64,000 nucleotides of DNA from an uncultured Pelagibacteraceae bacterium (GTDB taxonomy: Bacteria > Pseudomonadota > Alphaproteobacteria > Pelagibacterales > Pelagibacteraceae): the NCBI GenBank assembly GCA_902555535.1, contig CACDTB010000003.1:1-64000 (forward strand), written 5' to 3'. Position 1 is the first letter of the stretch, and every line of letters begins with the position of its first letter. This document shows positions 24,819-50,060 of this stretch, one piece after another. The position numbers were made by a program, and so were the translations under genes. Under the pieces are notes generated by a model, which ran no database searches, had not been told where the DNA came from, and saw nothing but the letters and a program-made list of their open reading frames with translations.

Positions 24819-25457
24819 TTAATTTAGCTCTTGTAAAATTTGATCTGTGAGTTTTTTAATTTCATCTACAGCACTTCCTTTTCTTTGTTTTTCAATTGCT
24901 GTTTTACCTTCACCCATAGATGAAGCGTAAATTTGACGATTCCCAATTATTGTATCAACAGAAGGAACGTTTAAACTCTTGATATAATCATTTGTTTTAA
25001 CAATTTGCTTTGATCTTTGGTTGGCTCGATTAATTTGAATCATAATTTTTTTATTTGCTTTTTTTGCAATTTCTATGATTGCTTCTGTTGCCCAAAAATC
25101 TACATGTGATGGAGTCATTGGAATTAAAACTAAATCGGACGCTTCAATTGACGGTCTTGCGTCTGACTCTATTTTTGGAGGAGTATCTATTATAACAATA
25201 TCATGATCTTTTTTTAAATTTTTTGATTCATATTGTGCACCCCAAAGACTGGCAGTTTTAAAACTTAAATTTTCGCTTGATATATTTTTTTCTGACCTAA
25301 TCATAAACCACTGTCCAAGACTACCTTGTGGATCAGTGTCAATTACTGCGACTTTTAAATTTTGAAATTTAATAAAACCCATTGCTAAGTGAATTGCCAA
25401 AGTCGTTTTGCCAGTTCCACCTTTTTGTTGAGAAATAGTAATAACTTTTGAGAGCAT
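24819..25457 (-). CDS. ParA/MinD-family ATPase
   Basis: ISQQKGGTGKTTLAIHLA deviant Walker A, DTDPQGSLGQW, VIIDTPP. Confidence 0.9.
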   Translation of the reverse strand: MLSKVITISQQKGGTGKTTLAIHLAMGFIKFQNLKVAVIDTDPQGSLGQWFMIRSEKNISSENLSFKTASLWGAQYESKNLKKDHDIVIIDTPPKIESDARPSIEASDLVLIPMTPSHVDFWATEAIIEIAKKANKKIMIQINRANQRSKQIVKTNDYIKSLNVPSVDTIIGNRQIYASSMGEGKTAIEKQRKGSAVDEIKKLTDQILQELN

Positions 25458-25697: not shown

Positions 25698-26402
25698 ATG
25701 AATAAGTTATTGTTACCAGCAGATATAGTAGGAGGATCATTTTGGTTAATCTCTGTTGCTATGATTGGTGCAGCAATTTTTTTCTTTTTAGAGAGAGGTA
25801 GAGTTTCACACAGATGGGGTACAGTAATGAACCTTGTCGGAGTGATAGCTTTAATGTCTTCAATTCATTATTTCTATGCAAAAAATTTGTGGGTGTTAAA
25901 TGGACAGGCACCTACTGCATTAAGATATATCGATTGGCTATTAACTTTCCCACTTACGATACTCACTTTTTATGTCATGCTAAAATCTGTTTATGATGTC
26001 AAGAGAGGTATGTTTTGGAGATTATTAGTTGGGACTCTAGTTTGGGTAATAGCACAATTGTTAGGAGCTTATGGTTACATGAGTGTAACATTGGGCTTCT
26101 TAGTTGGAATAGTTGGATGGTTATACATTATAGGTGAGCTTTATATGGGTGATACTGGAAGAGCTAATAGCGCGTGTAATAATGAAAGCGTTCAAATGGC
26201 ATTCTTCGCAAACAGACTAATAATCACAATTGGTTTTTCAATTTATCATATTGGATATTTTATAGAGCATTTAGCGGGAGGAGCTAACATTAATAGTTTA
26301 AACGTGATTTATAATTTAGCAGACGTATTAAATAAAATTATATTTGGAATGATTATTTATAGCGCTGCTCTTCAAGATACTAAGAAAGGGGCACAACAAT
26401 AG
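25698..26402 (+). CDS. Proteorhodopsin-family microbial rhodopsin with DTT motif
   Basis: SFWLISVAMIGAAIFFFLERGRVS, LRYIDWLLTFPLTILTFYVML, NLADVLNKIIFG Schiff-base Lys; 7 TM. Confidence 0.95.
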   Translation: MNKLLLPADIVGGSFWLISVAMIGAAIFFFLERGRVSHRWGTVMNLVGVIALMSSIHYFYAKNLWVLNGQAPTALRYIDWLLTFPLTILTFYVMLKSVYDVKRGMFWRLLVGTLVWVIAQLLGAYGYMSVTLGFLVGIVGWLYIIGELYMGDTGRANSACNNESVQMAFFANRLIITIGFSIYHIGYFIEHLAGGANINSLNVIYNLADVLNKIIFGMIIYSAALQDTKKGAQQ

Positions 26403-26415
26403 GGAGGTTTAATTT

Positions 26416-28398
26416 ATGACTAAAGGAGCAGATATAATAGCAGGAATAATATTACTAGCGTTAGCAATTGCAATTATTGTTTATTTGTTGCACTGGCTTT
26501 ACAGACGATCTTCAAAAGAAGTTTCATTTGTGAGAACAGGAATGTTGGGAGAAAAAGTTGTAATATCTGGAGGAGCCTTTGTCTTACCTATTATTCATAA
26601 CATTACTCAAGTAGGTATGCGTACTTTAAGTATAACAATTAAACGAGGTGGAGATAAATCTTTAATCACGAAAGATAGAATGAGAGCAGAACTAGTTACA
26701 GAATTTTTTACAAAAGTTCCACCTGAAGCTAAAGCAGTATCTACTGCAGCTCAAACATTAGGAAACAGAACTTTAGATCCTGAACATTTAAGAGAAGTTG
26801 TTCAAGGTAGATTTGCAGATGCACTTGGAGAAGTTGCTGCGAAAATGACTCTTGATGAGATACAAGAAAACAGAGGTACGTTTGTTAAAGAAGTTAGAAA
26901 GATAGCAGATGAGTCCATTGGTCATACTGGTTTAGCTCTAGAGACTGTTTCAATAATTTCGTTAGACCAAACACCTATTGAGCAATTTAATCCTGCAAAC
27001 ACTTTTGACTCGCAAGGTTTAACTCAGTTAACAGAACAAATTGAAGCAAGAAAGAAAAAAAGAAACGACATCACGCAAGATACAAAAATTTCTATAGAAA
27101 ATAAAAATTTAGAAACAGTTCAAAAAGAATTGCAGATTAAAAAAAATGAGGAATTTTCAAGGTATCAACAGGAAAGAGAAATTGCTGTACAAAAAGCTAA
27201 TGAAAGAACTGAAACTATAAAGAAAAAAGCTGAAAAAGAGCGAGAAGCAGAAGAATCTGAAATTAAAAACCAAGAAGCTGTAGAGGTTGCAAAAATTTCT
27301 CAAAACCAGGTAATTGAAGTAGAGAGAAAATTAACTGAAACGAGATTAATTGAAGAAATAGAAAAAAGAAGAAGAGAGCAAAATGCACTCGAACAAGAAG
27401 CAGCTTTAGATATAAGACAAAAGAATTTGGATACTGAAATTAAAATTTTGGATCTAGATAAAGAAAGCGAATATGCTAGGCTGGAAAAACAAAGACTAGT
27501 AGATACTAAACGAGCTCAAGAGAAGGCAGAAATTATTAAAGAACAATCTGACAAACAAAGAGAGTCGGAGGAAGCACAAATTATCGCTGAGCAACAAATT
27601 AAAAATGCAAAAATTGCGCAACAAAAAAATATTGATGCGCATAGAATTGAGTCTGAAAAAGAAGTTAGAACTTTAGATATAGAGAAAGCTAAAAGAATTC
27701 AAATTGAAGAACATCAAAAAGAACTTGAAATACTTGAAAAATCTAAAGAAGTTCTAAAATCTAAAGCAGACGAGCAAAATACTAGAGCTAAAGCAGTTGA
27801 AGCTGAAGAAAAAGCAAATTCAACAAGATATATCGAAAAAGCTGAAGGAATGAAACAGGTAGACGTTATATCTGCTGCATCTAAAGCGGAGCAAGATAAA
27901 TATGAAACTATGGCGGCGAAATTAAGATATGAAATTGATGCTGCAGGTAAAGAAGCTCTTAATATGGCCGAAAATGTTAGAAGTGATGCAAGCAGAAGAA
28001 GCGCTTTAAGAAATAAATTAGCTGAGAAAATAGAGTCTATAATCAGAGAAAGTGTTAAGCCAATGGCAAATATTGGGGATATTAAAATTGTTGATGTTAG
28101 TGGCTTACCAGGTTTCAGTGGAACAGCTGGCGGAGGATCTGCCGGTGGAGGCAAAGATGTTTCAGGTGGCAAGAGCTCAGGTAACTTAGCAGATAATGTT
28201 GTGAGCTCAGCATTAAGATATAGAGCTCATCAACCATTTTTAGACAGTCTTCTGAAAGAAATCGGAATGAATCCTGGAGAAATTAGCAACATTAGAAATA
28301 TCTTAGGTGATTATGGTAATCCTAAAAAAGATTATCACATGAACTTTGGTGAAAATGTTAACGCAGATTTAAAAGGAGACAAGAGTCCAAAAAAATAA
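26416..28398 (+). CDS. Flotillin-like SPFH-domain protein
   Basis: N-terminal TM, SPFH (FVRTGMLGEKVVISGGAFVLPIIHNITQVGMRTLSITIKRGGDKSLITKDRMRAELVTEFFTKV), long Glu/Lys coiled coil, Gly-rich linker and conserved-looking C-tail. Confidence 0.9.
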   Translation: MTKGADIIAGIILLALAIAIIVYLLHWLYRRSSKEVSFVRTGMLGEKVVISGGAFVLPIIHNITQVGMRTLSITIKRGGDKSLITKDRMRAELVTEFFTKVPPEAKAVSTAAQTLGNRTLDPEHLREVVQGRFADALGEVAAKMTLDEIQENRGTFVKEVRKIADESIGHTGLALETVSIISLDQTPIEQFNPANTFDSQGLTQLTEQIEARKKKRNDITQDTKISIENKNLETVQKELQIKKNEEFSRYQQEREIAVQKANERTETIKKKAEKEREAEESEIKNQEAVEVAKISQNQVIEVERKLTETRLIEEIEKRRREQNALEQEAALDIRQKNLDTEIKILDLDKESEYARLEKQRLVDTKRAQEKAEIIKEQSDKQRESEEAQIIAEQQIKNAKIAQQKNIDAHRIESEKEVRTLDIEKAKRIQIEEHQKELEILEKSKEVLKSKADEQNTRAKAVEAEEKANSTRYIEKAEGMKQVDVISAASKAEQDKYETMAAKLRYEIDAAGKEALNMAENVRSDASRRSALRNKLAEKIESIIRESVKPMANIGDIKIVDVSGLPGFSGTAGGGSAGGGKDVSGGKSSGNLADNVVSSALRYRAHQPFLDSLLKEIGMNPGEISNIRNILGDYGNPKKDYHMNFGENVNADLKGDKSPKK

Positions 28399-28414: not shown

Positions 28415-28804
28415 ATGAGTGTTGAATTAGAAAACTGGGCAAAAAAATACGAAGAGTTTACAAATAATGATGAAACCATCAAAGCGATGGCAAAATATTA
28501 TACTTGCTCTTTTATGTTTGACATGGAAAGTGCAAAAGTAATTATTGAAATGCATGATGGAAAAGTAAAAAATATTAATACTAATCCATCACCTTTAGAC
28601 CCTTATGATTTTGCATTAAGAGCATCAGCCAATACGTGGAAAGAATTTGGCCAGCCGATACCTAAACCTATGTATCATGGAATTTGGTCAGCTAGTTTTT
28701 TAAGAGATTTAAAAATTGAAGGTAATCACTTAGTCCTTATGAAAAATCTAAGAAACTTTACTGTTCAATTTGAATTATTAAGAAAGACAGGGGTGCCGGT
28801 TTAA
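28415..28804 (+). CDS. SCP2 sterol-carrier-like small protein
   Basis: 129 aa, TCSFMFDMESAKVIIEMHDGKVKNI..DFALRASANTWKEF; SCP2-like pattern. Confidence 0.5.
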   Translation: MSVELENWAKKYEEFTNNDETIKAMAKYYTCSFMFDMESAKVIIEMHDGKVKNINTNPSPLDPYDFALRASANTWKEFGQPIPKPMYHGIWSASFLRDLKIEGNHLVLMKNLRNFTVQFELLRKTGVPV

Positions 28805-28829: not shown

Positions 28830-29684
28830 ATGGTAAAACATCATGATGTAGTTGGGCGATATGTAACAATTGAAGTTGATGATTGTGAATATAAGGTATT
28901 TTATCTTCAAAATGGAAAAGGCATACCTTTAATTTGTCAACATACAGCAGGATGTCATAATCATCAATGGAGAGGACTATTAGAAGACCCAGAAATAACA
29001 AAAAATTATAATGTGATTGCATATGATTTACCTCGTCATGGGAAATCGGATCCTCCACATAATAAAGAGTGGTGGAAAGAAGAATACAAACTTACTGCAG
29101 AGCATTATTGTAACTTCATAGTCAAATTATGTGATGCTTTGGGTCTACAAAATCCAATTTTCATGGGGTCGTCTTTTGGAGGAAATGTTGCTTTACAATT
29201 AGCATTAAGACACCCGAATAAATTTAGAGCTGTAATTCCAGTAGAGGCAGCTGATTATGCCCCAGGATTTTATCTTGATTGGTGGAGACATCCTCACGCA
29301 AATGCTGCTCAGGTTTGTGCAAGCGGTACTTGGGATTTGATGGCACCACAGTCACCAGAAAAAGATAGATGGTTAACTTGGCATTATTATACTCAAGGTT
29401 CAGAGGCTTTTAAGGGTGATTTATACTTTTATTCTGTAGATCATGATTTAAGGAAAGAATTACAAAACATTGATGGCCATAAGTGTCCAGTAATAATGCT
29501 TACAGGAACTTATGATTATTTAACACCCCCAGAGGCGACAGAAAATACCGCGCGACAAATCAAAGGTGGAGTTTATATAGAAATGGCTGATATAGGACAC
29601 TTCCCTATGAGTGAAAATCATGAAGTTTTTAGAGTTTATTTAATGGAAGCCTTAAAAATAATTCAAGAAAGGACTAGTAAATAA
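28830..29684 (+). CDS. Alpha/beta hydrolase
   Basis: GKGIPLICQHTAGCHNHQW, GSSFGGNVALQLALRHP, GTYDYLTPPE; ATG at 28830 has GGAGG 5 nt upstream block, track TTG start 28815 not used. Confidence 0.85.
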   Translation: MVKHHDVVGRYVTIEVDDCEYKVFYLQNGKGIPLICQHTAGCHNHQWRGLLEDPEITKNYNVIAYDLPRHGKSDPPHNKEWWKEEYKLTAEHYCNFIVKLCDALGLQNPIFMGSSFGGNVALQLALRHPNKFRAVIPVEAADYAPGFYLDWWRHPHANAAQVCASGTWDLMAPQSPEKDRWLTWHYYTQGSEAFKGDLYFYSVDHDLRKELQNIDGHKCPVIMLTGTYDYLTPPEATENTARQIKGGVYIEMADIGHFPMSENHEVFRVYLMEALKIIQERTSK

Positions 29685-29704: not shown

Positions 29705-30124
29705 ATGGATAAAGACAAAACAGGAGTTCAATTAAATCTAGGTCACACCAGTACGGATGATTACATCACTGAGAAATATGTTTTGCCTCTATTAAGAGAT
29801 GAAAAAATGAGAAACAAACTAATAGAAGAACATAGAGCAACTCCTGTTGGTAAAGCACCGCAACCTCACAAAGGTCAGCCAATGGTTGAGCACAGTAAGG
29901 AATTACAAATCGTACTAGATAAACTTAGAAGGATGCCGATGCATATAAAAAAATATGTAACAATATGTAAAAAAGATTTTCAAGATTATAGAATTGGAAT
30001 TGTTACAGGTGTTAGAGGCGAACCTGTTGAAATATTAGAAGACTCATATTCTTCAGAGGAAGCTTGCGAGCATGCAATATTTTTGAAAAGAATTTTAGAT
30101 TTATTAGAAAGACATGGTGGATAG
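29705..30124 (+). CDS. N,N-dimethylformamidase small-subunit-like protein
   Basis: EEHRATPVGKAPQPH..MPMHIKKYVTICKKDFQDYRIGIV..YSSEEACEHAIFLKRILDL resembles remembered DmfA1; directly upstream of DmfA2-like gene. Confidence 0.6.
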   Translation: MDKDKTGVQLNLGHTSTDDYITEKYVLPLLRDEKMRNKLIEEHRATPVGKAPQPHKGQPMVEHSKELQIVLDKLRRMPMHIKKYVTICKKDFQDYRIGIVTGVRGEPVEILEDSYSSEEACEHAIFLKRILDLLERHGG

Positions 30125-30128
30125 TTAA

Positions 30129-32486
30129 ATGTTAAGAATAACTGGATATAGTGACAAATATACTGCGTTCCCTGGAGAGGAAATAAAATTTTATGTTAAT
30201 GCTGAAAAAAATGAAAATTATGAAGTTCAAATAGTAAGATTAATACATGGTGATACGAATCCTGAAGGCCCAGGTTATAAAGATGAGGAGGTAGGAGCTG
30301 AATGTAATGGAAACTATCAAGGAAGAAATCAAAAAATTCATGGTGGTTCTTATTTAATTGTCCCTCAAGATGATAGATTAAATACATCTAGTTTTACTTT
30401 ACAAGCTTATATTTTTCCAACAACTCCAGACAAAGGTAGACAAGGAATTTTAACTAAGTGGAATCAAAAAACTAAAAGTGGTTATGGACTTTTTATTGAT
30501 GAAAATGCATGTTTGTCAGTATCAATAGGAGATGGTAACGGACAAATATCGGCACTTTCAAGTGAAAAGAAATTAATGAGAAAAGTTTGGTATTTAGTAG
30601 CCGCTTCTTATGATGCTGAAACAGGTAAATTAAAACTTTATCAAGAGCCTTGTGTGACACCGACAAATGGTGGATTAGGTATGTCACTTCTTCATCCGGC
30701 AGATGAAACAACATCATATGTAGAGTCTATTAGCAATTTAAAACCAAGAGCTAACGATGCTCCTTTCTTAATGGCAGCTTGTTCTTTAAATGACAGATCA
30801 GGCAGACATATACATGGTGCACATTATAAAGAAGCTACAAGCCCTATTGAGTTACCTGAACAAACTTTAACTTATAATGGTAAAATCGATAGACCTAGAT
30901 TGAGTAAAAAAGCACTATCAAAATCTGATATTGAGTCCCTTGCTAGAGGATTTACTGATTGTACATCTGAGTTAAGATCTGAAGTAATCGGTGCTTGGGA
31001 TTTCCATGCTAATATCACAAAAAATATAGCTTCTACGCACATTGTGGATAAAACCTCAAATCATTTAAACGGGTTTATAATAAATTTACCATGCAGAGGT
31101 ATGACAGGTTATAATTGGACTGCAGATGAAATGGTATTTCATCACAAACCTGAGGAATATGGGGCTATACATTTTCATGATGATGATATTGATGATGCAA
31201 GATGGGATGTAGACTTTACTTATAAAGTACCAGATTTGATAAGAAGTGGAGTTTATGCTGCTAGATTAAGAATTAATGGTGAGGAGTCTGCAGAAACTGA
31301 AGATTTTATACCTTTTGTAATCAAGCCGCCAAAAGGAAAAACAACCTCTGACCTTCTGTTTGTTTTACCAACAAATAGTTATATCGCTTACTCAAATGAT
31401 AATTTGGGAACTAATTCTGTTGTAGCACAATTACTAGCTGGAAAAGTTCCTGTTTTAGGTGCAGCGGATTTATATCTTAATGAACATAGAGAATATGGTT
31501 TATCAACTTATTCTTTACACTCAGATGGTAGTGGTGTTGCAATTTCTTCAAGATTAAGACCAATACTTAATATGAGACCAAAATATAGACACTGGCTATC
31601 CCCCTCATTATGGCAATTGAATGCAGATCTTCATTTAACAGATTGGTTAGAGGAAAAGAATTTTGATTTTGATGTAGTTACTGATGAAGATTTACACTTA
31701 GAAGGTGTTGAACTATTAAATCGTTATAAATGCGTTCTTACTGGATCACACCCAGAATATAGTTCAGAGAAAATGTTAGCTGCTTATGAACAGTATCAAT
31801 TGAACGGTGGAAGATGGATTTATTTAGGATCAGATGGATTTTACTGGATAAGTGAATATCATCCTGAAAATCCAAATATAATTGAAGTTAGAAAAGGTGA
31901 AGCAGGTACAAGGGCTTGGACTGCGAACCCAGGAGAGTATAACAATGCATTTGATGGAAAGTATGGAGGTATGTGGAGAGCAAGAGGAAGAATACCTTCA
32001 AAAGTATGTGGACTTACATTTACTGCATATGGATTTGATGTAAGTTCTTATTACAAAAGATGTCCTGATAGCAAAAGACCAGAATGTTCATGGATATTTG
32101 ATGGAGTTGGTGAAGATGAGGTAATTGGAGATTTTGGTTTAGTTGGTGGGGGTGCAGCTGGTTTAGAGCTAGACAGATATGATTTAGAATTTGGGACACC
32201 TCACAATGCTTATTTATTAGCAAGGTCTGAAAATCATACAAATCTTATGATGCAGGTAAACGAGGAAATTCACTTTACTGTAAGAGGATATTATGGGGGT
32301 GGAACAGAAAACCCGATGGTAAGAGCAGATATGATTTATTATAAAACTCCAAATAATGGAGCGCTTTTTGCTCCAGGCTCGTTGTCATTTTGTGGAAGTT
32401 TATCTTACAATAACTACAACAATAACGTTTCAAAAATTCTTGAAAACGCAATTAGAGGATTTTTGAAAGAAGGTCCTTTACCATAA
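30129..32486 (+). CDS. N,N-dimethylformamidase large-subunit-like protein (LamG-like + DMFA2_C)
   Basis: 785 aa; DKYTAFPGEEIKFYV, LamG-like SFTLQAYIFPTTPDKGRQGILTKW, PTNSYIAYSND, VLTGSHPEYSSEKM. Confidence 0.8.
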   Translation: MLRITGYSDKYTAFPGEEIKFYVNAEKNENYEVQIVRLIHGDTNPEGPGYKDEEVGAECNGNYQGRNQKIHGGSYLIVPQDDRLNTSSFTLQAYIFPTTPDKGRQGILTKWNQKTKSGYGLFIDENACLSVSIGDGNGQISALSSEKKLMRKVWYLVAASYDAETGKLKLYQEPCVTPTNGGLGMSLLHPADETTSYVESISNLKPRANDAPFLMAACSLNDRSGRHIHGAHYKEATSPIELPEQTLTYNGKIDRPRLSKKALSKSDIESLARGFTDCTSELRSEVIGAWDFHANITKNIASTHIVDKTSNHLNGFIINLPCRGMTGYNWTADEMVFHHKPEEYGAIHFHDDDIDDARWDVDFTYKVPDLIRSGVYAARLRINGEESAETEDFIPFVIKPPKGKTTSDLLFVLPTNSYIAYSNDNLGTNSVVAQLLAGKVPVLGAADLYLNEHREYGLSTYSLHSDGSGVAISSRLRPILNMRPKYRHWLSPSLWQLNADLHLTDWLEEKNFDFDVVTDEDLHLEGVELLNRYKCVLTGSHPEYSSEKMLAAYEQYQLNGGRWIYLGSDGFYWISEYHPENPNIIEVRKGEAGTRAWTANPGEYNNAFDGKYGGMWRARGRIPSKVCGLTFTAYGFDVSSYYKRCPDSKRPECSWIFDGVGEDEVIGDFGLVGGGAAGLELDRYDLEFGTPHNAYLLARSENHTNLMMQVNEEIHFTVRGYYGGGTENPMVRADMIYYKTPNNGALFAPGSLSFCGSLSYNNYNNNVSKILENAIRGFLKEGPLP

Positions 32487-32854
32487 TGAGCAATCATCAA
32501 TTTACTAGGCCAGAAGGAACCGGGGGAAAAAGTATCTTAGGATCTGATGATAAAACACCATTAAATCAGTTAGAGAAGGAAGCCTTAGGTGATTTAGATC
32601 AAGATAAATTAAATGAATTAGCAAAATGCTTATTTACACTAAATAATAGAAGATACGGACCAATACCAGGAGCTTATATGGTTATGTGCACAAATCCTGG
32701 TAAAGAGTGGTGTGTCGCTCAACTAAATGCAGATCGAGCTAAGCCATTTATTATTTTTGAGGATAAAAAATATTCATCAATAAAAGAGGCCCAGCAAGAA
32801 GCAGAGAGAATTAAAAAAGAAAAAGGTGAAACAGCACCAAGACGCTGCACTTGA
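32486..32854 (+). CDS. Conserved-looking hypothetical protein
   Basis: 122 aa ORF in operon, ATG overlaps stop of upstream gene. Confidence 0.65.
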   Translation: MSNHQFTRPEGTGGKSILGSDDKTPLNQLEKEALGDLDQDKLNELAKCLFTLNNRRYGPIPGAYMVMCTNPGKEWCVAQLNADRAKPFIIFEDKKYSSIKEAQQEAERIKKEKGETAPRRCT

Positions 32855-32875: not shown

Positions 32876-33154
32876 ATGGCAAACTCCAAAGTCCTTGTTA
32901 AAAATGATAAAGTCATTGTGACAGAATGGTCTTTTGATATAGGTGATAGTACCGGTCATCATATACATCAATATAATTATGTTGTGATTCCAATGTTGGA
33001 TGGTGAGCTTAAAATAATTGATAAAAACAATAATGAAACAATATCAAAATTAACAAAAGGTGTTGCTTATTACCGAGACAAAGGGGTAGAGCACAACGTA
33101 TTTAATAACAATAATTTTCCGTATTCTTTTATAGAAGTTGAAATGGTAGATTAA
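32876..33154 (+). CDS. Cupin-like small protein
   Basis: GHHIHQYNYVVIPMLDGELKI..GVEHNVFN cupin motifs. Confidence 0.75.
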   Translation: MANSKVLVKNDKVIVTEWSFDIGDSTGHHIHQYNYVVIPMLDGELKIIDKNNNETISKLTKGVAYYRDKGVEHNVFNNNNFPYSFIEVEMVD

Positions 33155-33155
33155 A

Positions 33156-35222
33156 ATGTCAGAAAAGTCTGTTTGGTTATTTTTATTTATTTTACTTTAT
33201 GCAGCATTTTGTTTTTTTTGGGGAGTAAGAGGATCAAAGTTTAATTCAGAGAATCCTCAAAAATATTATTTAGCTGACAAAAATGTTTCCTCGTGGGTAT
33301 TTTTCTTTGCTGCAACAGCTGCAACATTTGCTGGTTTAACTATAATTTCTCAAACAAGTTTAATATACAACGATGGATTTCAATATGTTGGAACGGCATT
33401 TATAGCGATTACAGTTCCACTTGGTAGTATCTTTTTCTTTAAAAGACAATGGATGTTAAGTAGGAAGTTTGGCTACATAACACCTGGTGAAATGTATTAT
33501 GACTATTATAAAAGTGATACCTTAAGAATAATTACAGTTCTTGTAACTTTTTTTGTAGCAATACCTTTGTTAGCAGTTTTTTTTGGAGCAACAGGTTTTT
33601 TGGTAAACATTTTGTCTGATGGATACATTTCACGAGATCTTGGGATGTGGGTTATTTCAACAATTGTATTATTTTATGTTACAAGAGGAGGTTTTAAATC
33701 TGTTGTTAGTGTAGGCGTGGTACAATCTTGGTTATACTTTTTAACTGTTATTATACTCGGTCTTATTATTTATTTTTTTGTAGGAAATTTTGAAACTTTT
33801 GGAAGAGCATTATCTAAAATTGCAACTACACCTATAAGCAATTGGGGTAATACTCAAGGATATGGAGGAGGAGATTTCAATGGATATTTTGCATTACCTG
33901 GTGTTATTCAATGGGTAGCAGGCCTAGGAAAAAATCCTGCAGTTGGAGGACCATGGACTGCTATGATGATATTTACATTTGCTATTTCTTTTATGGGAGT
34001 AGTGTTATCTCCATCTTTCTCAATGTGGAGCTATACCGCAAAACATCCAAAAGTATTCTCTTATTATCAAATTTGGGGTTCAGCGGTAGTAGTTGGCATT
34101 TTATTGTTTGTATTTGCTACTTATCAAGGTGTAGGCGCTAGTTTGTTGGGAGCAAATTCTGAGATAAATAGTAGTGGTTTATCAATAAACAAAATACTCC
34201 CAGAAGTATCATCAGAAGATCATTCACTACTAATTTATCAAATTATAAATTTAATGGATAACAGTGCTTTATGGGTAACTGGATTGTTAGCCGTAGGGGT
34301 AATTGCAGCAATTCAGTCTACTGCAGCGGCTTTTTTAATTACATCAGGAGGCATTATTACCAGAGATCTTTATAAAACTTATGTTAATAAAAATATTTCC
34401 TGGGAAAATGAATTAGTAGCAGTTCGAATAATTACAATGTTAATATTTTTAGCTGCACTTTATCTTGCAACATTTGCAAAACCTGCCATGGTAATTTTTA
34501 GTGGTATATCAATATCAATAGCTTTTCAGTTTTTAATCGTTCTTTTAGGTTTAATTTGGTTTCCGTGGATAACCAGAGGGGCTGCAATATCTGGTATTAT
34601 CATAGGAATTATTATTGTAATTTTAACAGAGACTATCGGACAACAAATTTCAGGTAATAGATTACCATGGGGAAGATGGCCATTAACAATTCATTCTGGT
34701 GTTTGGGGATTGTTATTTAATGTATTTATATGCTTTTCTGTTTCAGCTTTTTCTTCACTAACAAAAATAGACTCAGATAGAAATCATAGACAAAAATATC
34801 ATGACTTCTTAAATGATCACATGGGTCTTCATCCAAGTAGAACTAAACTTAGATCATTTGCTTATGTAATTGCCTTGATATGGTTATTTTTTGGTGCAGG
34901 ACCTGGACAAGTTCTTGGAAATAGTTTTTTTGGTGAACCAAGTGCAGGATATGAAGAATGGATCTTAAAAATACCTTCTTTATGGGGATATCAATTAATC
35001 TGGTGGTTTTTTGGTATAGGTTTAATTTGGTTCTTGGCTAGTAAAATGGATCTATCAACTTTACCTAACAAACCTATACAAGCAAACGATTTATATAAGA
35101 GTCCAGATGAAATATCAGGAGAAGTTAATTATATTGATAAACTAGGAACAGGCTACGGTTGGATTTTAATACTAATTGGTATAGCTATTTTTGCAATAAT
35201 CTTTTACGTATATTTTGTTTAG
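33156..35222 (+). CDS. Sodium:solute symporter (SSS) family
   Basis: 688 aa, SSS motifs ATAATFAGLTIISQTSLIYNDG, TRGGFKSVVSVGVVQSWL, GVIAAIQSTAAAFLITSGGIITRDLYK. Confidence 0.87.
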   Translation: MSEKSVWLFLFILLYAAFCFFWGVRGSKFNSENPQKYYLADKNVSSWVFFFAATAATFAGLTIISQTSLIYNDGFQYVGTAFIAITVPLGSIFFFKRQWMLSRKFGYITPGEMYYDYYKSDTLRIITVLVTFFVAIPLLAVFFGATGFLVNILSDGYISRDLGMWVISTIVLFYVTRGGFKSVVSVGVVQSWLYFLTVIILGLIIYFFVGNFETFGRALSKIATTPISNWGNTQGYGGGDFNGYFALPGVIQWVAGLGKNPAVGGPWTAMMIFTFAISFMGVVLSPSFSMWSYTAKHPKVFSYYQIWGSAVVVGILLFVFATYQGVGASLLGANSEINSSGLSINKILPEVSSEDHSLLIYQIINLMDNSALWVTGLLAVGVIAAIQSTAAAFLITSGGIITRDLYKTYVNKNISWENELVAVRIITMLIFLAALYLATFAKPAMVIFSGISISIAFQFLIVLLGLIWFPWITRGAAISGIIIGIIIVILTETIGQQISGNRLPWGRWPLTIHSGVWGLLFNVFICFSVSAFSSLTKIDSDRNHRQKYHDFLNDHMGLHPSRTKLRSFAYVIALIWLFFGAGPGQVLGNSFFGEPSAGYEEWILKIPSLWGYQLIWWFFGIGLIWFLASKMDLSTLPNKPIQANDLYKSPDEISGEVNYIDKLGTGYGWILILIGIAIFAIIFYVYFV

Positions 35223-36401
35223 GTGATTATGAATTTAAATAATTTTACATTTAATACAACATCAGGAATTAGATTTGGTAATGGTACGTCTAAAAGTTGT
35301 GTTTCAGAAATATCTCAAAAACTTGGACCAAATATTTTATTTATTACAGACAAAGATTTAATGTCATTAAAATTAACAGAACCTACTTTAATTGAATTAA
35401 ACAAATTATCCTCAAAAGTAGAAGTTTTCCAAGATGTTGAGGCTGATCCTTCTCTAAAAACACTAATGAATGCGATAGAGATTGGGAAGAAAAATAAAAT
35501 TACAGGAGTTATTGGTTTTGGAGGCGGGTCATCAATGGATGTTGCTAAGCTAACTTCACTAATCCTAGGTTCAAACGAGAATATTGAAGAGGCATGGGGT
35601 GTTTCTAACGCTAAAGGTCCAAGATTACCTTTAATATTAGTTCCAACCACAGCAGGAACGGGTTCGGAAGTGACTCCTATATCTATAATTACTGTAGGAG
35701 AGGAGGAAAAAAAAGGTGTATCTTCTCCAATTATTCTTCCAGATATAGCTATTTTGGATCCAGAATTAACCGTTGGTTTACCAGCTCATACTACTGCAGC
35801 AACAGGTATTGATGCAATGGTTCATGCAATAGAGGGTTATGCCTCTGCAAATAAAAATAACAATCCAATATCGAAAATGATTGCTGTAGAGGCACTGAAG
35901 CTTTTAGGAGGTTCAATTGAAAAAGCTGTTTTTGAAGGCTCAAATATTGAGGCAAGAGGCAATATGTTATTAGGTGCAATGTTAGCAGGAAAATCTTTTG
36001 CTAATTCTCCAGTTGCTGCTGTTCATGCTTTAGCATATCCTATTGGAGGAACATTTCATGTATCCCATGGTCTTTCAAACTCTCTAGTTCTTCCATATGT
36101 TTTAAGATTTAATAGTGTAGATAATAAAGCCACAAAAGACTATTCAGATTTAGCTCCGTTTCTTTTTCCTGATATCGATATGAGTAAGGGAAGCCAAGCT
36201 ATTTGTAAGGAGTTTATAGATAGGCTTGAAAATTTATCAAAAAAACTTGGTCTTCCACAAAAATTAAGGGAGGTCAATATTCCCAAGGAAGCATGTAAAA
36301 AAATGGCTTCAGATGCAATGAAACAAACCCGTTTATTAGTAAATAATCCAAGAGAGGTGACAGAAAATGACGCTCTTAACATTTATGAGGCTGCCTGGTA
36401 G
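35223..36401 (+). CDS. Iron-containing alcohol dehydrogenase
   Basis: GFGGGSSMDVAKLTSL, PTTAGTGSEVTP, GIDAMVHAIEGY, HVSHGLSNSLVLP. Confidence 0.92.
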   Translation: MIMNLNNFTFNTTSGIRFGNGTSKSCVSEISQKLGPNILFITDKDLMSLKLTEPTLIELNKLSSKVEVFQDVEADPSLKTLMNAIEIGKKNKITGVIGFGGGSSMDVAKLTSLILGSNENIEEAWGVSNAKGPRLPLILVPTTAGTGSEVTPISIITVGEEEKKGVSSPIILPDIAILDPELTVGLPAHTTAATGIDAMVHAIEGYASANKNNNPISKMIAVEALKLLGGSIEKAVFEGSNIEARGNMLLGAMLAGKSFANSPVAAVHALAYPIGGTFHVSHGLSNSLVLPYVLRFNSVDNKATKDYSDLAPFLFPDIDMSKGSQAICKEFIDRLENLSKKLGLPQKLREVNIPKEACKKMASDAMKQTRLLVNNPREVTENDALNIYEAAW

Positions 36402-36409
36402 AATTAATT

Positions 36410-37246
36410 ATGGAAAATAATAAAGAAGATATTTTTGAAAATACAACAAAGTTTAATTCTGGAATTAAACTTTATATGTTCCAAACAGGATCTATAAAAA
36501 CAAAATTAAAGTTCATTAAAATGAATCATAGTGAGGAACCTTATGAAATTCCAGTTCCATGGTTTTTAATAAAGCATCCTCAAGGAGATGTAATTATTGA
36601 TGGCGGAATGCCAATTGAAGCAGCACTCGATAAACATAAACATTGGGGTGATGTAGTAGATGCTTACGATCCAGTTATGAAAGTTTCTGAATGGTGTAAA
36701 GAGGTAGTTAAAACTGTAAATACAAACCCCGAGGATGTTAAATATGTTATACAAACTCATTTACATTTAGATCATTCAGGGGCGATTGGACACTTCCCAA
36801 ACGCTACCCATATAACTCAAAGAATAGAATATGATTATGCCTTTAACCCTGACTGGTTTTCTCAACCCGCATATATAAGAGCAGATTTTGACAAACCAAA
36901 TATAAGATGGAAATTTTTACAAGGCAAAAAAACGGATTTTTATGATGTCTATGGCGATGGAGTTATTAAAATAATATTTACTCCTGGCCATACTCCAGGA
37001 CATCAATCTGTTCTAGTAAATCTTCCAAAAACTGGACACATGTTGTTTACTGGAGATGCTTGTTACACAGGAGATCATTGGTGTGATAAATGCTTGCCAG
37101 GTCTTGTAGCATCTGCTTCTGACGCTGCTGACTCTGTTAAAAAATTAAGAAAGGTCGCAAAAGATCATAATGCTAAAGTAGTTTGGGGCCATGACCCTGT
37201 TACTTGGTTAGATTGGAAAAAAGCTCCAATGTTTTATTACGATTAA
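36410..37246 (+). CDS. Metallo-beta-lactamase-fold hydrolase (AHL-lactonase-like family)
   Basis: QTHLHLDHSGAIGHF, FTPGHTPGHQSVLV, FTGDACY, VVWGHDP. Confidence 0.87.
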   Translation: MENNKEDIFENTTKFNSGIKLYMFQTGSIKTKLKFIKMNHSEEPYEIPVPWFLIKHPQGDVIIDGGMPIEAALDKHKHWGDVVDAYDPVMKVSEWCKEVVKTVNTNPEDVKYVIQTHLHLDHSGAIGHFPNATHITQRIEYDYAFNPDWFSQPAYIRADFDKPNIRWKFLQGKKTDFYDVYGDGVIKIIFTPGHTPGHQSVLVNLPKTGHMLFTGDACYTGDHWCDKCLPGLVASASDAADSVKKLRKVAKDHNAKVVWGHDPVTWLDWKKAPMFYYD

Positions 37247-38301: not shown

Positions 38302-39426
38302 TTAAAAATATTTTACCTTGATGTCTTTCATTCCTTTTTTTTCAATAATTTTTTCTCTAATTTTTTTATCTCTATTTATCTTATCAAAATCAACAATTTT
38401 TATTTTATCAATCTTAATATTAGAATTTTTATTTTCATTTAGAAAGGTTTGATCAGATTTAGCTATACTTTTTTCACTACAAATGAGAGTTTGCTCTAAT
38501 CTCATCTCTTGAGCTTTCTCGAGTGGTATTTCTTTAAACTTTAGCATGTCACCAGGTTTTGCTTGTCCTAATTTCCAAAAAGCAGCTGATGGAACTGTAT
38601 ATGGTACTATAAATCCTCCCATACTAGGTCCATCGTTAACTAAAATAATTGGAGTTTGACCAGCAATATTAATAGCACCAATAGGATATCCTTGGTCTAT
38701 AATATTTGATGGTTCAGCCCCGTGTTCTAAACCTTTATTGGTTGCTTTTTCATTAAATGTCCAATTGGGACCTTCCAATCTATATCCCGTTCTATCGCTT
38801 TTAGATTGTAGTTTCCAATTCGTATTTAAAAACATTTTATGACCATTATCATCTATCCAATCATCGTTTGGTCCTTTTACTACTTCTATTTCCCATATTT
38901 TATCTTTTGAAAATTTAGGAATAAATTCATTTTTAATTTTTCTTCCAATATCTGATTTTGATTTATTAATTTTAATTTCTTGGCCATCCTGAATAGCTTT
39001 TCCGTCTATACCTCCGACTCCAGCTTTATGAAAAGTAGATCTTGATCCAAGCCAAGGCTTGCTATCGATACCTCCTGAAAAAGCAATATAGGATCTTGCT
39101 CCTATAGTCGCAAAACTCATTTCTAATATTTGGTTCTTTTCCACCTTAATACTTTCCCAAAGAGATATTGGTTTTCCATCAATCTTTGGATCCATATTCG
39201 CCCCAGTAATTGCGATAACTGCATCATTTTCAAATTTCAGGCTTGGACCCATAAACTGACATTCTAAAGCTGGTGCACCTGGATCATTTTGTACTAGAAC
39301 GTTCGCAAGTCTAAATGACCAACTATCCATAGGACCTGATGGAGGAAAACCTTGATTTAAAGTTCCTATTCTTCCTGGATAATCTTGAACTGAAGTTTCT
39401 AAACCTTTTTTAATTACTTTGATCAT
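38302..39426 (-). CDS. pxpC: PxpC/KipA-like carboxyltransferase subunit with extra C-terminal tail
   Basis: LETSVQDYPGRIGTLNQGFPPSGPMDSWSFRLAN, GLEHGAEPSNIIDQGYPIGAINIAGQTPIIL. Confidence 0.85.
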   Translation of the reverse strand: MIKVIKKGLETSVQDYPGRIGTLNQGFPPSGPMDSWSFRLANVLVQNDPGAPALECQFMGPSLKFENDAVIAITGANMDPKIDGKPISLWESIKVEKNQILEMSFATIGARSYIAFSGGIDSKPWLGSRSTFHKAGVGGIDGKAIQDGQEIKINKSKSDIGRKIKNEFIPKFSKDKIWEIEVVKGPNDDWIDDNGHKMFLNTNWKLQSKSDRTGYRLEGPNWTFNEKATNKGLEHGAEPSNIIDQGYPIGAINIAGQTPIILVNDGPSMGGFIVPYTVPSAAFWKLGQAKPGDMLKFKEIPLEKAQEMRLEQTLICSEKSIAKSDQTFLNENKNSNIKIDKIKIVDFDKINRDKKIREKIIEKKGMKDIKVKYF

Positions 39427-39428
39427 TG

Positions 39429-41918
39429 TTAAAATCTCTTATTTGAATCTATCGTAGTTAACCATTTTTTATAATTCTTCACAGAAAATTTTTGATAATC
39501 AACAATATTGTAGTCATAAGACCCATCTTCAATTTTATTATATACATGATCAAACTCTTCATAACTTGTTGGAACAAATTTAACTCTATCCCCAGGTTGA
39601 AATAAACAAATATTATTTTCAAAAACTGGAAAACTTTTTTTTGTATCCCAAATAGGCACAGGAATTATTCCAAAGATTTGATAACCACCGGGCAATCTAT
39701 CGGGATATATACAAGTAGAAGCACCTCCCATTCCTACTGTCCCTTTAGGTGTCCATGTTCTTGGAGGATTATATTTAGGAACTGTTAATTTACATCGAGG
39801 GTCTAACGCCATCATAAATGGTAAGCCAGGCCAAAATCCAATTGCAGCAACCCAATATTCTGTTGATGAGTGAACTCTTACAAATTGTTCAGTGCTTTCT
39901 AAATCATTTAGTTCTGCAATAAGTTCTGGATCTGGCTTTTTTTTCGCAATTTTTTTGGAGTAATCTTCAATGCATTCTTGTGTCCATTTATCTAAGTAAA
40001 CAGTTGGAAAAGAAAATACTCTACTATTTATTTCTATGTCATCAGTAGGCCCGAGAGACTCAATAAGGTTTAATAATTCTTTTTTTAATTCATGAAATTT
40101 AATCTCTTCAGGTTCGTAGTGAACTATCATAGACGCAAAGCATGGAGATGTTTCATACACACCTCTAATTTTATGATCTTTTATCGCTTTAGCTAAATTT
40201 TGAGCTGTAAAATTAAGCTCTAAGTTCATTACATTTCCAAATTCTATTAGCATATATTTATCTCCAGCAGGCAAAAACTTTGGGGTATCATATATTTTTC
40301 CAGGAACATTATTTATCTTAGTTTTTGGAATTTCTTTAACTTCTTTTTTTGGAGAAACAATATTTTCAAACGCTTTTAAGTCTTTTTCAGAATAATTTTG
40401 GCCATTAGATTTTTTTGGTGCTTTTGAAATAATATTTTCAAAGGCTTTAAAATCTTTTTCAGTATAGTTTTTATTCTCTGATTTTTCTTTTTTAATTTCC
40501 TTTTTTTCTTTAGTTTTAATAGATTTAACTATTTCTTCTTTAATTTCTTTTTTATCCTCATATTTTGTAAAAATTGATAGGTTGTTTTCAATAAATTTTG
40601 TATTGAATTTAGCATCATTAAAAGAATTATTTTTTAAGACTTCAATTAAAAATTCTTTATTTGTTTTTATTCCCTCAATTTGCATACTTTGAAGAAAATC
40701 TGTCATTTTTCTAATAACGTCTGTTCTAGAATTTCCTTTACAAATAATTTTTGCTATCATCGGATCATAGTAAAAAGAAATTTCATCTCCTTCACCTACA
40801 CCAATATCAATTCTTATATCTTTAGAAACTTCAGGAAATCGTAATTTAGAAATTTTTCCTGGTGAGGGTAAAAAATTTTTTTTGGGATCTTCGGCGTAAA
40901 GTCTACATTCCATTGTATTCCCATTTTTAGAAATTTTAGATTGTGAAACTTGACTAGAATCAAGATTTAAAGCGTATTTTAATTGTAATTCTACCAGATC
41001 AATACCAGTTATTTCTTCTGTCACCGGGTGTTCAACTTGAATTCTAGTATTCATTTCAAGAAAATAAAATTTTTTTTGATCAATATCGTAAATAAATTCA
41101 ATTGTACCAGCTCCCTCATATTTTTGGTCTGATGCAAATTTTACAGACATTTGTGCCATTTCATTAATAATAGATTGATCAACTTTTGGTGCAGGGCTCT
41201 CTTCAATTATTTTTTGAAATCTTCTTTGAATTGAACAATCTCGTTCATAGAAATGAACCGAATTTCTTTCTCCATAACCAAATATTTGAATTTCTATATG
41301 TCTTGAATTTCTTATAAATTTTTCAAGGAAGATATCACTATTACCAAAAGCTTTTTTGGCTAGATTTTTTGTTTTATCAACTGCAGTTTTAAGTTCATTG
41401 AAGTTGTTGACAATTTGCATACCAATACCACCACCCCCAGCACTCGCTTTTATTAATATTGGATAACCTATTTCCATACATTTTTTTTCTAAATCACTTG
41501 ATTCTATTTCGTCATTTTTAAGACCAGGACAAATCGGTAGATTACTTTTTATCGCAAGTTCTCTTGCAATATCCTTATTACCCATTGATGTTATATTGTT
41601 TGGCTTTGGTCCTATCCAAGTAATTCCGGAGTCCATAACGTTTTGAGCAAATTCCGCATTTTCAGATAAAAAACCATAACCTGGATGAATTGCATCAGCT
41701 TTTGAACTTAGCGCTGCATTAATTATTTTTCTTGTTGATAAATAACTTTCTTGAGCTTTCGACTCTCCAATATGAACAGCTTCATCTGCTATTCGCACAT
41801 GTTTACTTTTTTTATCTACATCTGAGTATACTGCTATTGTATTCAAATTTAGCTTTTTACAACTCTCAATTATTCTACAAGCTATTTCTCCTCTATTCGC
41901 AATTAATATTTTCTTCAT
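39429..41918 (-). CDS. Biotin carboxylase fused to PxpB/KipI-like domain
   Basis: MKKILIANRGEIACRII, KASAGGGGIGMQIV, EMNTRIQVEHPVTEEITG; C-terminal PxpB EYWVAAIGFWPGLPFM...GMGGASTCIYPDRLPGGYQIFG. Confidence 0.9.
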   Translation of the reverse strand: MKKILIANRGEIACRIIESCKKLNLNTIAVYSDVDKKSKHVRIADEAVHIGESKAQESYLSTRKIINAALSSKADAIHPGYGFLSENAEFAQNVMDSGITWIGPKPNNITSMGNKDIARELAIKSNLPICPGLKNDEIESSDLEKKCMEIGYPILIKASAGGGGIGMQIVNNFNELKTAVDKTKNLAKKAFGNSDIFLEKFIRNSRHIEIQIFGYGERNSVHFYERDCSIQRRFQKIIEESPAPKVDQSIINEMAQMSVKFASDQKYEGAGTIEFIYDIDQKKFYFLEMNTRIQVEHPVTEEITGIDLVELQLKYALNLDSSQVSQSKISKNGNTMECRLYAEDPKKNFLPSPGKISKLRFPEVSKDIRIDIGVGEGDEISFYYDPMIAKIICKGNSRTDVIRKMTDFLQSMQIEGIKTNKEFLIEVLKNNSFNDAKFNTKFIENNLSIFTKYEDKKEIKEEIVKSIKTKEKKEIKKEKSENKNYTEKDFKAFENIISKAPKKSNGQNYSEKDLKAFENIVSPKKEVKEIPKTKINNVPGKIYDTPKFLPAGDKYMLIEFGNVMNLELNFTAQNLAKAIKDHKIRGVYETSPCFASMIVHYEPEEIKFHELKKELLNLIESLGPTDDIEINSRVFSFPTVYLDKWTQECIEDYSKKIAKKKPDPELIAELNDLESTEQFVRVHSSTEYWVAAIGFWPGLPFMMALDPRCKLTVPKYNPPRTWTPKGTVGMGGASTCIYPDRLPGGYQIFGIIPVPIWDTKKSFPVFENNICLFQPGDRVKFVPTSYEEFDHVYNKIEDGSYDYNIVDYQKFSVKNYKKWLTTIDSNKRF

Positions 41919-42637
41919 TGATTTTTAATTGCATTTTTAAGCTTTGTAATTATTTCAACAGCATTTGGAGTATCAGAATGTACACAAATAATATCACATC
42001 CTACATCAATATCTGTACCTGACGTAGTTGTAACTTTTTTTTCCCTTATAGCTTTTAAAGTTCTTTCAGCCGCAAGATCACTATCATAAAGAGAGTTTTT
42101 TCCTTTTGCTAATACCAATTTACCAGTTTCATCGTAGTCAAGATCAGCATAAAATTCTGCAATAAAATTTAACCCTCTTTCGTGTTTATAAACCTTTTCG
42201 TGAACAGTGTTTGCCATTCCAAATATACTTACATTAAAAGGCGCAACAGCATCAGCAATTGCTCTTGCTATCTCTTCATCTTTAGATGCCATAACATATA
42301 AAGCACCATGAGGTTTTATATGATTTAGAGGCATTTCCATCTCATCTAAGAAAGCTTTTAAGGCTCCTACCTGATACATAATATTATTTTTTAATTCTAG
42401 CTTTGACATTTTCATTTCTCGTCTTCCAAAACCTTGCAAGTCAGGAAATGAAGGGTGGGCACCAACCTTAACATTATTTTTTTTTGCAAGTTCAACAGTT
42501 TTTCTCATATGATTTGGGTCAGATGCATGAAAACCACATGCTACATTCGCAACATCGATAAGAGGCATTATTTCATCATCATTACCAGCTTGATAAATTC
42601 CAAAACTTTCGCCCATATCACAGTTTAGTTTTGTCAT
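41915..42637 (-). CDS. pxpA: PxpA/LamB-YcsF family 5-oxoprolinase-type subunit
   Basis: LNCDMGESFGIYQAGNDDEIMPLIDVANVACGFHASDPNHMRKTVELAKKNNVKVGAHPSFPDLQGFGRREM. Confidence 0.92.
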   Translation of the reverse strand: MTKLNCDMGESFGIYQAGNDDEIMPLIDVANVACGFHASDPNHMRKTVELAKKNNVKVGAHPSFPDLQGFGRREMKMSKLELKNNIMYQVGALKAFLDEMEMPLNHIKPHGALYVMASKDEEIARAIADAVAPFNVSIFGMANTVHEKVYKHERGLNFIAEFYADLDYDETGKLVLAKGKNSLYDSDLAAERTLKAIREKKVTTTSGTDIDVGCDIICVHSDTPNAVEIITKLKNAIKNQ

Positions 42638-42649
42638 AATTACTCTCCT

Positions 42650-44050
42650 TTAAATTTGACTTCTAATATGTGGCGATCTTGCATAAAGAGCCACCATTGG
42701 AATAATTAATAGACCAAGAATAAATTGCTGCGCTTCCCAGCTTAAACCCCAACCTATTAAAACTGTTGTTATAATTTGTAAGATCAACACACCTATAACG
42801 CTTAATCCATAACCACCATATCCACCTAGAAGGGACGTTCCTCCAATTACAACTGCTGCTAATGTTGTAAATAAATATATATCTCCAGCTCCTACAAAGC
42901 CTCCACCACTCCAACCTAAAAGAAGTGCACCAGTTAACGCAGCAAAAAAACCACTAATAACATACGCACCAATCCAATAACCTTTTTCAGAAATTGAAAG
43001 TCTAGAAGATGATAATCGACTACCACCTAATGCATACAAGTGCCTTCCCCATTTTGTTAACCTCAAACCAATTATAATTAAGATACTTGCTACTATCCAA
43101 ATAATAATTACTGGTGGAATTGGAAGGCCTATTGTTTTACCATTCATTGAAGCCAAGTTCGTCATCCATGGTGGGACAACTCCAAATACAGTACCTGCAG
43201 AAAATGTACCTAACGCAACTAATATTTGCACTCCACCTTTAACAAAAAAACCAACTCCTAAAGTTAAAATTAATGCCTGTCCCTGAAGTCTAAAACTTAA
43301 TATTCCATTAACCAGTCCTATCAATGCTCCTAGTAACAGCACAGCTAAACAAGCAAGCCATGGTGGAACACCTTTAGATATTAAAGACATTAGAGCAACG
43401 TTTACTGATCCAATTACAAATGGTATTGATAAGTCCAATCCCCCAAGAAGAGCCACAAAAGTTTGACCAACGGTTGCTAGCCCTAAAAAAGCAGCAAACA
43501 CCAGCATTGACTTCATATTAAGTAATGTAAGAAATCCTGGAATTGTCAGTGATCCAATTATAAATAAACCAATTAATACTGATATCCCAATAAATACACT
43601 TTTAGTCCCTTTGATATATCTGCTTATAACCCCCATGAAGATTACAAAACCTAAAAATATTAAAAAAGAAACTAAGGTTCTTCCTGAAAAAAAACCATCA
43701 GCGATAAAAGATACAAAAATAAAAATAAGTATAATTCCTAGAAACGCAACAGTTTTCCATTTATGTTCTTTTATATTTTTAAAGAAGAAATTTTCTTCGA
43801 TTTCATCTTCTACAGGCTTTTCATCTTTTGGAAATTTAGTAAAAATATTTTGTTTTAATTCTTCATTTATCCATCGTACTGAAAAGTGGTACCATCCCCA
43901 AAGTATAAGACCAGTGACCGCTAATGAGAAGGTTACTATATTCATCCAGTCAGCACCATCGTACCAACCTAAAACTGCAGTACCAATTCCACAAAGTATT
44001 GCAAAAATTAAACCCAATCCTTTAAAAAATAAAAAAGCGGAACGTTTCAT
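42650..44050 (-). CDS. CUT2/ribose-type ABC transporter permease with ~150-aa N-terminal extension
   Basis: VGQTFVALLGGLDLSIPFVIGSVNV; GAGDIYLFTTLAAVVIGGTSLLGGYGG. Confidence 0.85.
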   Translation of the reverse strand: MKRSAFLFFKGLGLIFAILCGIGTAVLGWYDGADWMNIVTFSLAVTGLILWGWYHFSVRWINEELKQNIFTKFPKDEKPVEDEIEENFFFKNIKEHKWKTVAFLGIILIFIFVSFIADGFFSGRTLVSFLIFLGFVIFMGVISRYIKGTKSVFIGISVLIGLFIIGSLTIPGFLTLLNMKSMLVFAAFLGLATVGQTFVALLGGLDLSIPFVIGSVNVALMSLISKGVPPWLACLAVLLLGALIGLVNGILSFRLQGQALILTLGVGFFVKGGVQILVALGTFSAGTVFGVVPPWMTNLASMNGKTIGLPIPPVIIIWIVASILIIIGLRLTKWGRHLYALGGSRLSSSRLSISEKGYWIGAYVISGFFAALTGALLLGWSGGGFVGAGDIYLFTTLAAVVIGGTSLLGGYGGYGLSVIGVLILQIITTVLIGWGLSWEAQQFILGLLIIPMVALYARSPHIRSQI

Positions 44051-44051
44051 A

Positions 44052-46373: not shown

Positions 46374-46375
46374 AT

Positions 46376-46885
46376 TTAATCAAAATAAACAATTTTAATT
46401 TTTTCTATCCCAACTTTATTTTTAATTTTCTTATTACTTTCATTTAATTTGTTGTAATCAATGACTTTGACTTTTTTATTTTTTACTTCGACTTGATTTT
46501 TTTCTTGGTTTTCAGTTTTTATTATTTTGTTGAATTGGCTATAATCATCTTTTGAATAGTGAGAGTTACTATTCTGACTTTCATTATTATTATTCAATTT
46601 TAAATTGTATTCTTGAAAAGTATCTAGGGTTTCAAACTTATCAAAATCCGAATTATTATAATAATTTAACTCTTTTTTAATATTTGGCTCATTCAACAAT
46701 TCGAAATTTTCATTGGTTTTCAAAATATTATTAAAATTATTTTTATCAGTATTTGAATATTTAACATCTTGATTTTTTTCAGATTTATTGACTTTAATAT
46801 TTTTATTAAATTTTCTAAATTCATCTAATTTCTGAAATTGAATTTCGTCTTCCGTATTATAGTAATTAATTTTATTTTCTTTCAT
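46376..46885 (-). CDS. Repeat-containing hypothetical protein (candidate adaptor/scaffold)
   Basis: 169 aa, Asn/Lys-rich; two ungapped ~56-aa repeats (NYYN...YS..D..xFN.I.KT) and C-tail KIKIVYFD. Confidence 0.7.
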   Translation of the reverse strand: MKENKINYYNTEDEIQFQKLDEFRKFNKNIKVNKSEKNQDVKYSNTDKNNFNNILKTNENFELLNEPNIKKELNYYNNSDFDKFETLDTFQEYNLKLNNNNESQNSNSHYSKDDYSQFNKIIKTENQEKNQVEVKNKKVKVIDYNKLNESNKKIKNKVGIEKIKIVYFD

Positions 46886-48636: not shown

Positions 48637-48654
48637 ACCCTTTTTGCAAAAGTA

Positions 48655-49857: not shown

Positions 49858-50060
49858 AGTTTCTCCTTTCAATAATATTTTATCTTCTCACTTATAAATT
49901 AAGATATCCAGGATTTATTAATTTCTAGTTTTTATATATAAATTTTATAACTAAAATTTTTGTTTGTTTTTAACAATAAAAATATACTAAGTTTAATGAT
50001 AAACTATTTAATAATATTTTCTAATTAGAGTTGTATCTATAGAATTATATTAATTTTTTT

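Follow-up and report, generated by a model that had tools for sequence, protein, structure and literature searches.

A flotillin-associated rhodopsin and its flotillin in a SAR11 genome, with relatives in alphaproteobacteria carrying no other detected rhodopsin

The rhodopsin and flotillin genes that lie in tandem in the stretch of DNA analysed here (64,000 nucleotides from an uncultured Pelagibacteraceae bacterium, hereafter the window) are the flotillin-associated rhodopsin (FArhodopsin, or FAR) tandem of SAR11, which is already known. What is new is the genome-resolved occurrence of FAR with flotillin in non-streamlined alphaproteobacteria of about 4 Mb, in which no second rhodopsin, Blh or lycopene cyclase was detected. 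The reading we prefer, at a probability somewhat under one half (about 0.45), is that FAR may be a retinal-free seven-transmembrane (7TM) partner of a flotillin scaffold, and that the two would help to form a membrane domain for uptake and for the hydrolysis of amides, lactams or lactones.

The tandem and its distribution

The first-pass annotation of this DNA had described a rhodopsin followed after 13 bp, on the same strand, by a 660-aa SPFH/flotillin-like protein, and the open reading frames, the spacer and the Pfam domains all bear this out (Table 1). The rhodopsin is of type 1, with the motif D79/T83/T90 (DTT), and both Lys213, the retinal lysine, and D209 are present. The spacer carries a strong Shine-Dalgarno sequence, GGGAGGT, which overlaps the rhodopsin stop codon; together with the short distance between the genes this suggests tight co-expression. 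Scans for promoters and terminators gave sites no more numerous than in shuffled sequence. Selection on FAR is strongly purifying (dN/dS about 0.03-0.05; one HIMB59-like pair gave 0.01, with dS saturated), and the protein is therefore functional.

Table 1. Features of the FAR locus in the window. Positions are those of the window unless residues are indicated.
Feature	Position	Strand	Details
FArhodopsin gene	25698..26402	+	234 aa; DTT motif; Pfam Bac_rhodopsin E=1.2e-26
Rhodopsin-flotillin spacer	26403..26415	+	13 nt, stop to start
Flotillin gene	26416..28398	+	660 aa; Pfam Flot E=9.9e-29, Band_7/SPFH E=8.7e-14
Flotillin parts (predicted)	residues ~7-25; 40-183; 487-618		membrane helix; Band_7/SPFH; Flot C-terminal part; also a coiled coil
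SCP2-fold protein	28415..28804	+	129 aa; putative hydrophobic-ligand/lipid carrier; conserved neighbour
Alpha/beta hydrolase	28830..29684	+	284 aa; ATG start as in relatives; start in the ORF list is TTG at 28815
Two small-subunit-like ORFs	29705-30124, 32486-32854	+	probable small-subunit role
N,N-dimethylformamidase-like large subunit	30129-32486	+	within 29705..32854
Cupin, Na+/solute symporter, Fe-dependent alcohol dehydrogenase, AttM-type MBL lactonase	32876..37246	+
AttM-type MBL lactonase	36410-37246	+	over NCBIfam cut-off
5-oxoprolinase-type genes	38302..42637	-	PxpC-like; biotin carboxylase fused to PxpB-like; PxpA-like
Sugar-type (CUT2-like) ABC importer	42650..49872	-	two permeases, double ATPase, binding protein

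The same annotation knew of no described rhodopsin-flotillin pair, and in this it was wrong. The tandem was described in 2023 in SAR11 (Pelagibacterales), HIMB59 and Pseudothioglobus (Haro-Moreno et al., mSystems, PMC10308929), as a FArhodopsin followed across a 16-nt spacer by a 1,977-bp flotillin within an island of about 26 kb. The motifs given there are DTT (in SAR11), DTL and DNI; an SCP-type gene comes next, the island also contains DMFase, PxpA and symporter genes, a bona fide proteorhodopsin is encoded elsewhere in the FAR genomes, and co-transcription of FAR and flotillin was reported for AG-390-L03 (PMC10308929). The rhodopsins of the window and of this reference SAG (locus L017) share 94% identity, and the two loci are syntenic. 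Its best PDB matches, 9r21 and 9r23, are entries named 'flotillin-associated rhodopsin'; a literature search for the publication behind 9r21-9r23 found none. In the tree a single branch, with support of 98/99, splits the FAR clade from the proteorhodopsin (PR) clade and the window rhodopsin falls on the FAR side; the lysine-less FAR of locus L085 forms a long branch whose placement is less certain.

Besides belonging to this separate clade, the window rhodopsin has DTT replacing DTE and the flotillin directly 3' on the same strand, and the surrounding genes include those of the FAR-type island, ie the SCP2-like protein, symporter, DMFase, PxpA-type and ABC genes. The gene pair, DTT motif, flotillin size, island genes and second, DTE proteorhodopsin all match the published cluster, from which there is no essential difference, the spacer being 13 nt in the window and 16 nt there (PMC10308929). 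Beyond that work, the present analysis adds the members from alphaproteobacteria of about 4 Mb without a proton pump or Blh, an operon link to an ABC importer, a duplication in the flotillin coiled coil, and HyuAB-type genes replacing PxpABC in one MAG. The separate proteorhodopsin of the window's own genome (G000 C28:4404-5051, locus L001) has the motif D/T/E, and Blh is present as well. Blh is the enzyme that makes retinal from beta-carotene.

A survey of homologue neighbourhoods, proposed in the first-pass annotation, found that in 51 of 51 other FAR loci the gene immediately following in the same orientation encodes a flotillin, the sample of public genomes being partial (1,805 genome searches in total). 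The gap between the two genes is mostly 12-22 nt in SAR11, widening to 30-67 nt in lineages further away. Among 296 genomes of the family, flotillin was found in eight and FAR in six, all six lying within those eight (Fisher p=3e-11); for the remaining two flotillins, the contig ends inside the flotillin gene on the rhodopsin-facing side. The adjacency is not confined to this genome, nor is the flotillin found equally often beside unrelated genes. Across 20 loci the rhodopsin distances are correlated with those of the flotillins (r=0.93), a value which includes shared ancestry and is best read as co-inheritance, not contact.

A phylum-wide sample searched with the rhodopsin as bait, at E<=1e-60, returned only the FAR of the window and ordinary PRs; the distant FARs came to light with baits drawn from neighbouring genes, namely the alpha/beta hydrolase and the 129-aa protein. 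No FAR was found in the viral contigs searched. An 81-bp FAR match in a Roseibacillus MAG (L054:1-81) was set aside as a probable assembly chimera, as it lies at a contig end and is fused to unrelated sequence. Two FAR types (91% and 69%; L033 and L048) came from one MAG (JAQBUY01), which is likely a mixed bin.

Flotillin architecture and neighbouring genes

The window flotillin is like FloT and FloA in having SPFH and Flot domains and a single predicted N-terminal hydrophobic helix, but its coiled coil is longer and duplicated, and it scores 19 bits against the FloT equivalog cut-off of 700. The coiled coil contains a 106-aa tandem duplication (residues about 203-322 vs 309-428, 35% identity). 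A lag of 106 residues is also the strongest in the flotillins of the HIMB59-like loci, of locus L050 and of an alphaproteobacterial family, f144, described below; it was not seen in the shorter flotillin of the lysine-less locus L085. The shared lag and the difference in length are better evidence than the repeat BLAST E-value, which is not to be taken at face value in a low-complexity coiled coil. A PDB sequence search with the flotillin gave no matches.

The same-strand genes after the flotillin are closely spaced up to position 37246, and their spacing and strand point to one long operon that would reach this far. With a best E of 0.016, the 129-aa protein encoded directly after the flotillin does not reach the Pfam threshold for SCP2. 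The structure predicted for it (pLDDT 80), however, gives TM-scores of about 0.7 against structures of sterol carrier protein 2; this prediction was alignment-based, a single-sequence prediction having reached only pLDDT 41. Of the partners, the alpha/beta hydrolase is the best conserved, at 84-88% identity in L048, L050, L051 and f144, where the rhodopsin is only 51-70% identical; in L085 it is 78% identical. At 35223-37246 the Fe-dependent alcohol dehydrogenase is followed by the AttM-type lactonase, a pair reminiscent of the Agrobacterium att/blc operon with its lactonase and 4-hydroxybutyrate dehydrogenase.

In 12 other loci from several lineages (L041, L042, L047, L048, L050, L051, L085 and L095-L099) FAR is immediately preceded, in the same orientation, by a permease gene of the sugar-type ABC importer; in typical SAR11, the window included, the importer is encoded on the strand opposite to FAR and some 16 kb from it, which speaks against the reading that we prefer. 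HyuA/HyuB hydantoinase/oxoprolinase genes are found upstream of FAR at L050:2119-6211, and L051 has a same-sized pair. The SAR11 and HIMB59-like loci have PxpABC-like genes where L050 has HyuA/HyuB, possibly a non-orthologous replacement that preserves the same activity. From such gene content we infer that the island serves the breakdown of an amide, lactam or lactone. Divergent from the FAR operon, at 24819-25457, is a gene for a ParA/MipZ-like ATPase, which is conserved beside FAR in SAR11 islands (44 loci matched). Two similar DMT/EamA-like transporter ORFs lie in tandem at 18430-20334 on the minus strand, a probable duplication as judged by eye from the translations.

The predicted SCP2 fold of the neighbour would also suit a different role for FAR, that of a retinal-free receptor which obtains a hydrophobic ligand via the SCP2-fold protein and signals through the flotillin. 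The 7TM fold, the remodelled pocket and the strong purifying selection are in keeping with this, but the conserved core includes no transducer gene, and the remodelled pocket of the SAR11 proteins looks filled, not reshaped. We consider a chemosensor of this kind fairly unlikely.

FAR in genomes without another rhodopsin

Three genomes of about 4 Mb and 63-66% GC (G854, G940 and G1011; loci L097-L099) belong to the single alphaproteobacterial family f144. Their gene order is binding protein-ATPase-permease-permease-FAR-flotillin-SCP2-fold protein-hydrolase-MBL, with FAR at 51% identity. A fourth genome, G486, is that of a 3.8-Mb alphaproteobacterium, in which locus L085 (on a contig of 214 kb) shows the order SCP2-fold protein-hydrolase-MBL-binding protein-ATPase-permease-permease-FAR-flotillin, and FAR identity falls to 30%. 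FARs that are 59-61% identical occur in MAGs labelled Hyphomicrobiales and Chromatiales (L050, L051).

FAR is the sole rhodopsin in all four of the near-complete genomes G854, G940, G1011 and G486. Blh was searched for in these four and is absent, and searches for lycopene cyclase returned background-level matches only; both searches succeed in SAR11 and HIMB59-like genomes. These four genomes show that FAR can occur alone, ie without a second rhodopsin, and since neither a proton pump nor Blh accompanies it, FAR does not in general require a pump partner or retinal made by the cell itself. The f144 genomes carry RPE65-family genes, whose products might cleave imported carotenoids, whilst G486 has neither RPE65-family, Blh nor lycopene cyclase genes, and no retinal Lys in its FAR. 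Other bacteria with rhodopsins are known to take up retinal from their surroundings (discussed in PMC11561045); given this, the RPE65-family genes and the residues V84 and A120 in their FARs, the use of retinal is possible in f144.

The occurrence of FAR alone bears directly on the leading published idea, in which FAR and the DTE pump would form a heterocomplex in flotillin rafts as a helper for dim light (Haro-Moreno et al.). That a DTE proteorhodopsin is found in every SAR11 and HIMB59-like FAR genome examined for rhodopsins is consistent with it, as is the reported lower-photic distribution of FAR; for the freshwater FAR genomes those authors could not tell whether another rhodopsin is present (PMC10308929). 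The four genomes with FAR and flotillin but no second rhodopsin argue against it, and pump helping therefore cannot be the general function, although it could be a later use within SAR11. We judge it to be unlikely overall.

The retinal pocket and the proposed function

Relative to proteorhodopsins, the SAR11 FARs have the substitutions V84F, M116W, G120Q, W180F and P184H (window numbering), the pocket positions 84/116/120/180/184 corresponding to bacteriorhodopsin 90/118/122/182/186; the window FAR has F84/T87/W116/Q120/F180/H184. It shares the family, the 7TM fold, the Lys, D79 and T83 with proteorhodopsin pumps such as 4jq6 and that of its own genome, but differs from them in its filled pocket, separate clade and flotillin partner, and at the proton-donor position, where Thr stands for Glu and the DTE triad of proton pumps is lost. 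PDB 9r21 and 9r23 match over the full length (E about 1e-86). In 9r21 too, positions 84 and 120 are filled, although by H84 and E120 and with a DTM motif, where the window FAR has F84, Q120 and DTT. Over the aligned region, 9r23 differs from 9r21 at 84 (H to V) and 120 (E to G), the new residues being those of PR, and our reading is that the depositors may have opened the retinal pocket.

A blocked retinal pocket has been inferred for FAR (PMC10308929), and in earlier work, as cited in that paper, no retinal was bound by a DTT rhodopsin produced in E. coli. Judged by the pocket sequence and this report, SAR11 FAR most likely does not bind retinal, ie it would be a 'blind' rhodopsin. The HIMB59-like FARs (L095, L096) have F84 but keep G120, so pocket blocking is not identical across the branches. 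In the f144 FARs both of the blocking positions are occupied by small residues (V84, A120), although Gly replaces the pocket Trp141; these proteins might bind retinal or another carotenoid product. Both of these branches speak against the blind model. Lys213, and mostly Asp79 and Asp209 too, are kept in almost all FARs; a retained lysine would be odd in a retinal-free protein and counts against the blind model. An exception is the FAR of L085 (L085:1969-2700, minus strand), in which Arg replaces the retinal Lys and Asp79 (Asp85 in bacteriorhodopsin numbering) has become Gly, and there the flotillin is still adjacent. The lysine-less Rh-noK rhodopsins (PMC10308929) resemble FAR in being thought not to use retinal. 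Unlike the window FAR, which keeps its Lys and adjoins a flotillin, they are xanthorhodopsin-like and occur beside a working rhodopsin.

The first-pass annotation had put forward a light-responsive membrane microdomain, in which FAR would bind retinal, sense light and alter the clustering of flotillin. With the pocket filled in SAR11, no retinal bound in the E. coli experiment cited above, and an Arg-for-Lys member that keeps its flotillin in a genome without Blh or a second rhodopsin, this is distinctly unlikely, in spite of the Lys213 kept in SAR11, HIMB59-like and f144 FARs, the small blocking-position residues in f144, the Blh of the window's own genome and the association of FAR with the photic zone (PMC10308929). 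FAR probably does not sense light, the occurrence of FAR in genomes with no detectable retinal synthesis also pointing this way. The part of the proposal that holds is a functional link between rhodopsin and flotillin, which is well supported by adjacency conserved in many lineages, joint inheritance and co-transcription (PMC10308929). It is very improbable that the two genes are neighbours merely as passengers of a shared mobile catabolic island, for although the island is patchy (6-8 of the 296 family genomes), adjacency and order persist to 30% rhodopsin identity and across several island gene-order arrangements, and co-transcription has been reported (PMC10308929).

Our preferred reading, a retinal-free 7TM partner of the flotillin, would make FAR a proteorhodopsin descendant that no longer pumps and, in SAR11, has most likely lost the binding of retinal as well, and that would now act in the membrane as the seven-helix companion of a flotillin with a long coiled coil. 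Operon structure across the lineages suggests that FAR, flotillin and the SCP2-fold protein, a putative lipid carrier, may organise a membrane domain, that this domain could host or tune the sugar-type ABC importer, or the Na+ symporter, and that the importer or symporter would feed cytosolic amide, lactam or lactone hydrolases. We propose a blind protein because the pocket is filled in SAR11 FARs, because the Arg-for-Lys FAR of G486 keeps its flotillin, and because FAR is the sole rhodopsin in f144 and G486, where no Blh was found and no lycopene cyclase above background. Uptake is proposed because an ABC permease lies directly upstream of FAR in the 12 loci and because an SCP2 fold is predicted for the product of the third gene. 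Physical interaction of the proteins, the scaffold role and the substrate are things that we infer. A broader claim, which we make more tentatively and hold to be somewhat less probable than even, is that a retinal- and light-independent module of 7TM protein, flotillin and SCP2-fold protein, wired to a sugar-type ABC importer and amide/lactone hydrolases, may be widespread, that it also occurs in alphaproteobacteria with large genomes but no proteorhodopsin or retinal synthesis, and that its co-occurrence with the pump in SAR11 would be incidental.

The rediscovery of a published gene pair mainly validates the scan. The genomes in which FAR is the only rhodopsin argue against a dim-light helper of the proton pump as its general function, and in these organisms the blind-rhodopsin hypothesis is testable without a confounding pump.
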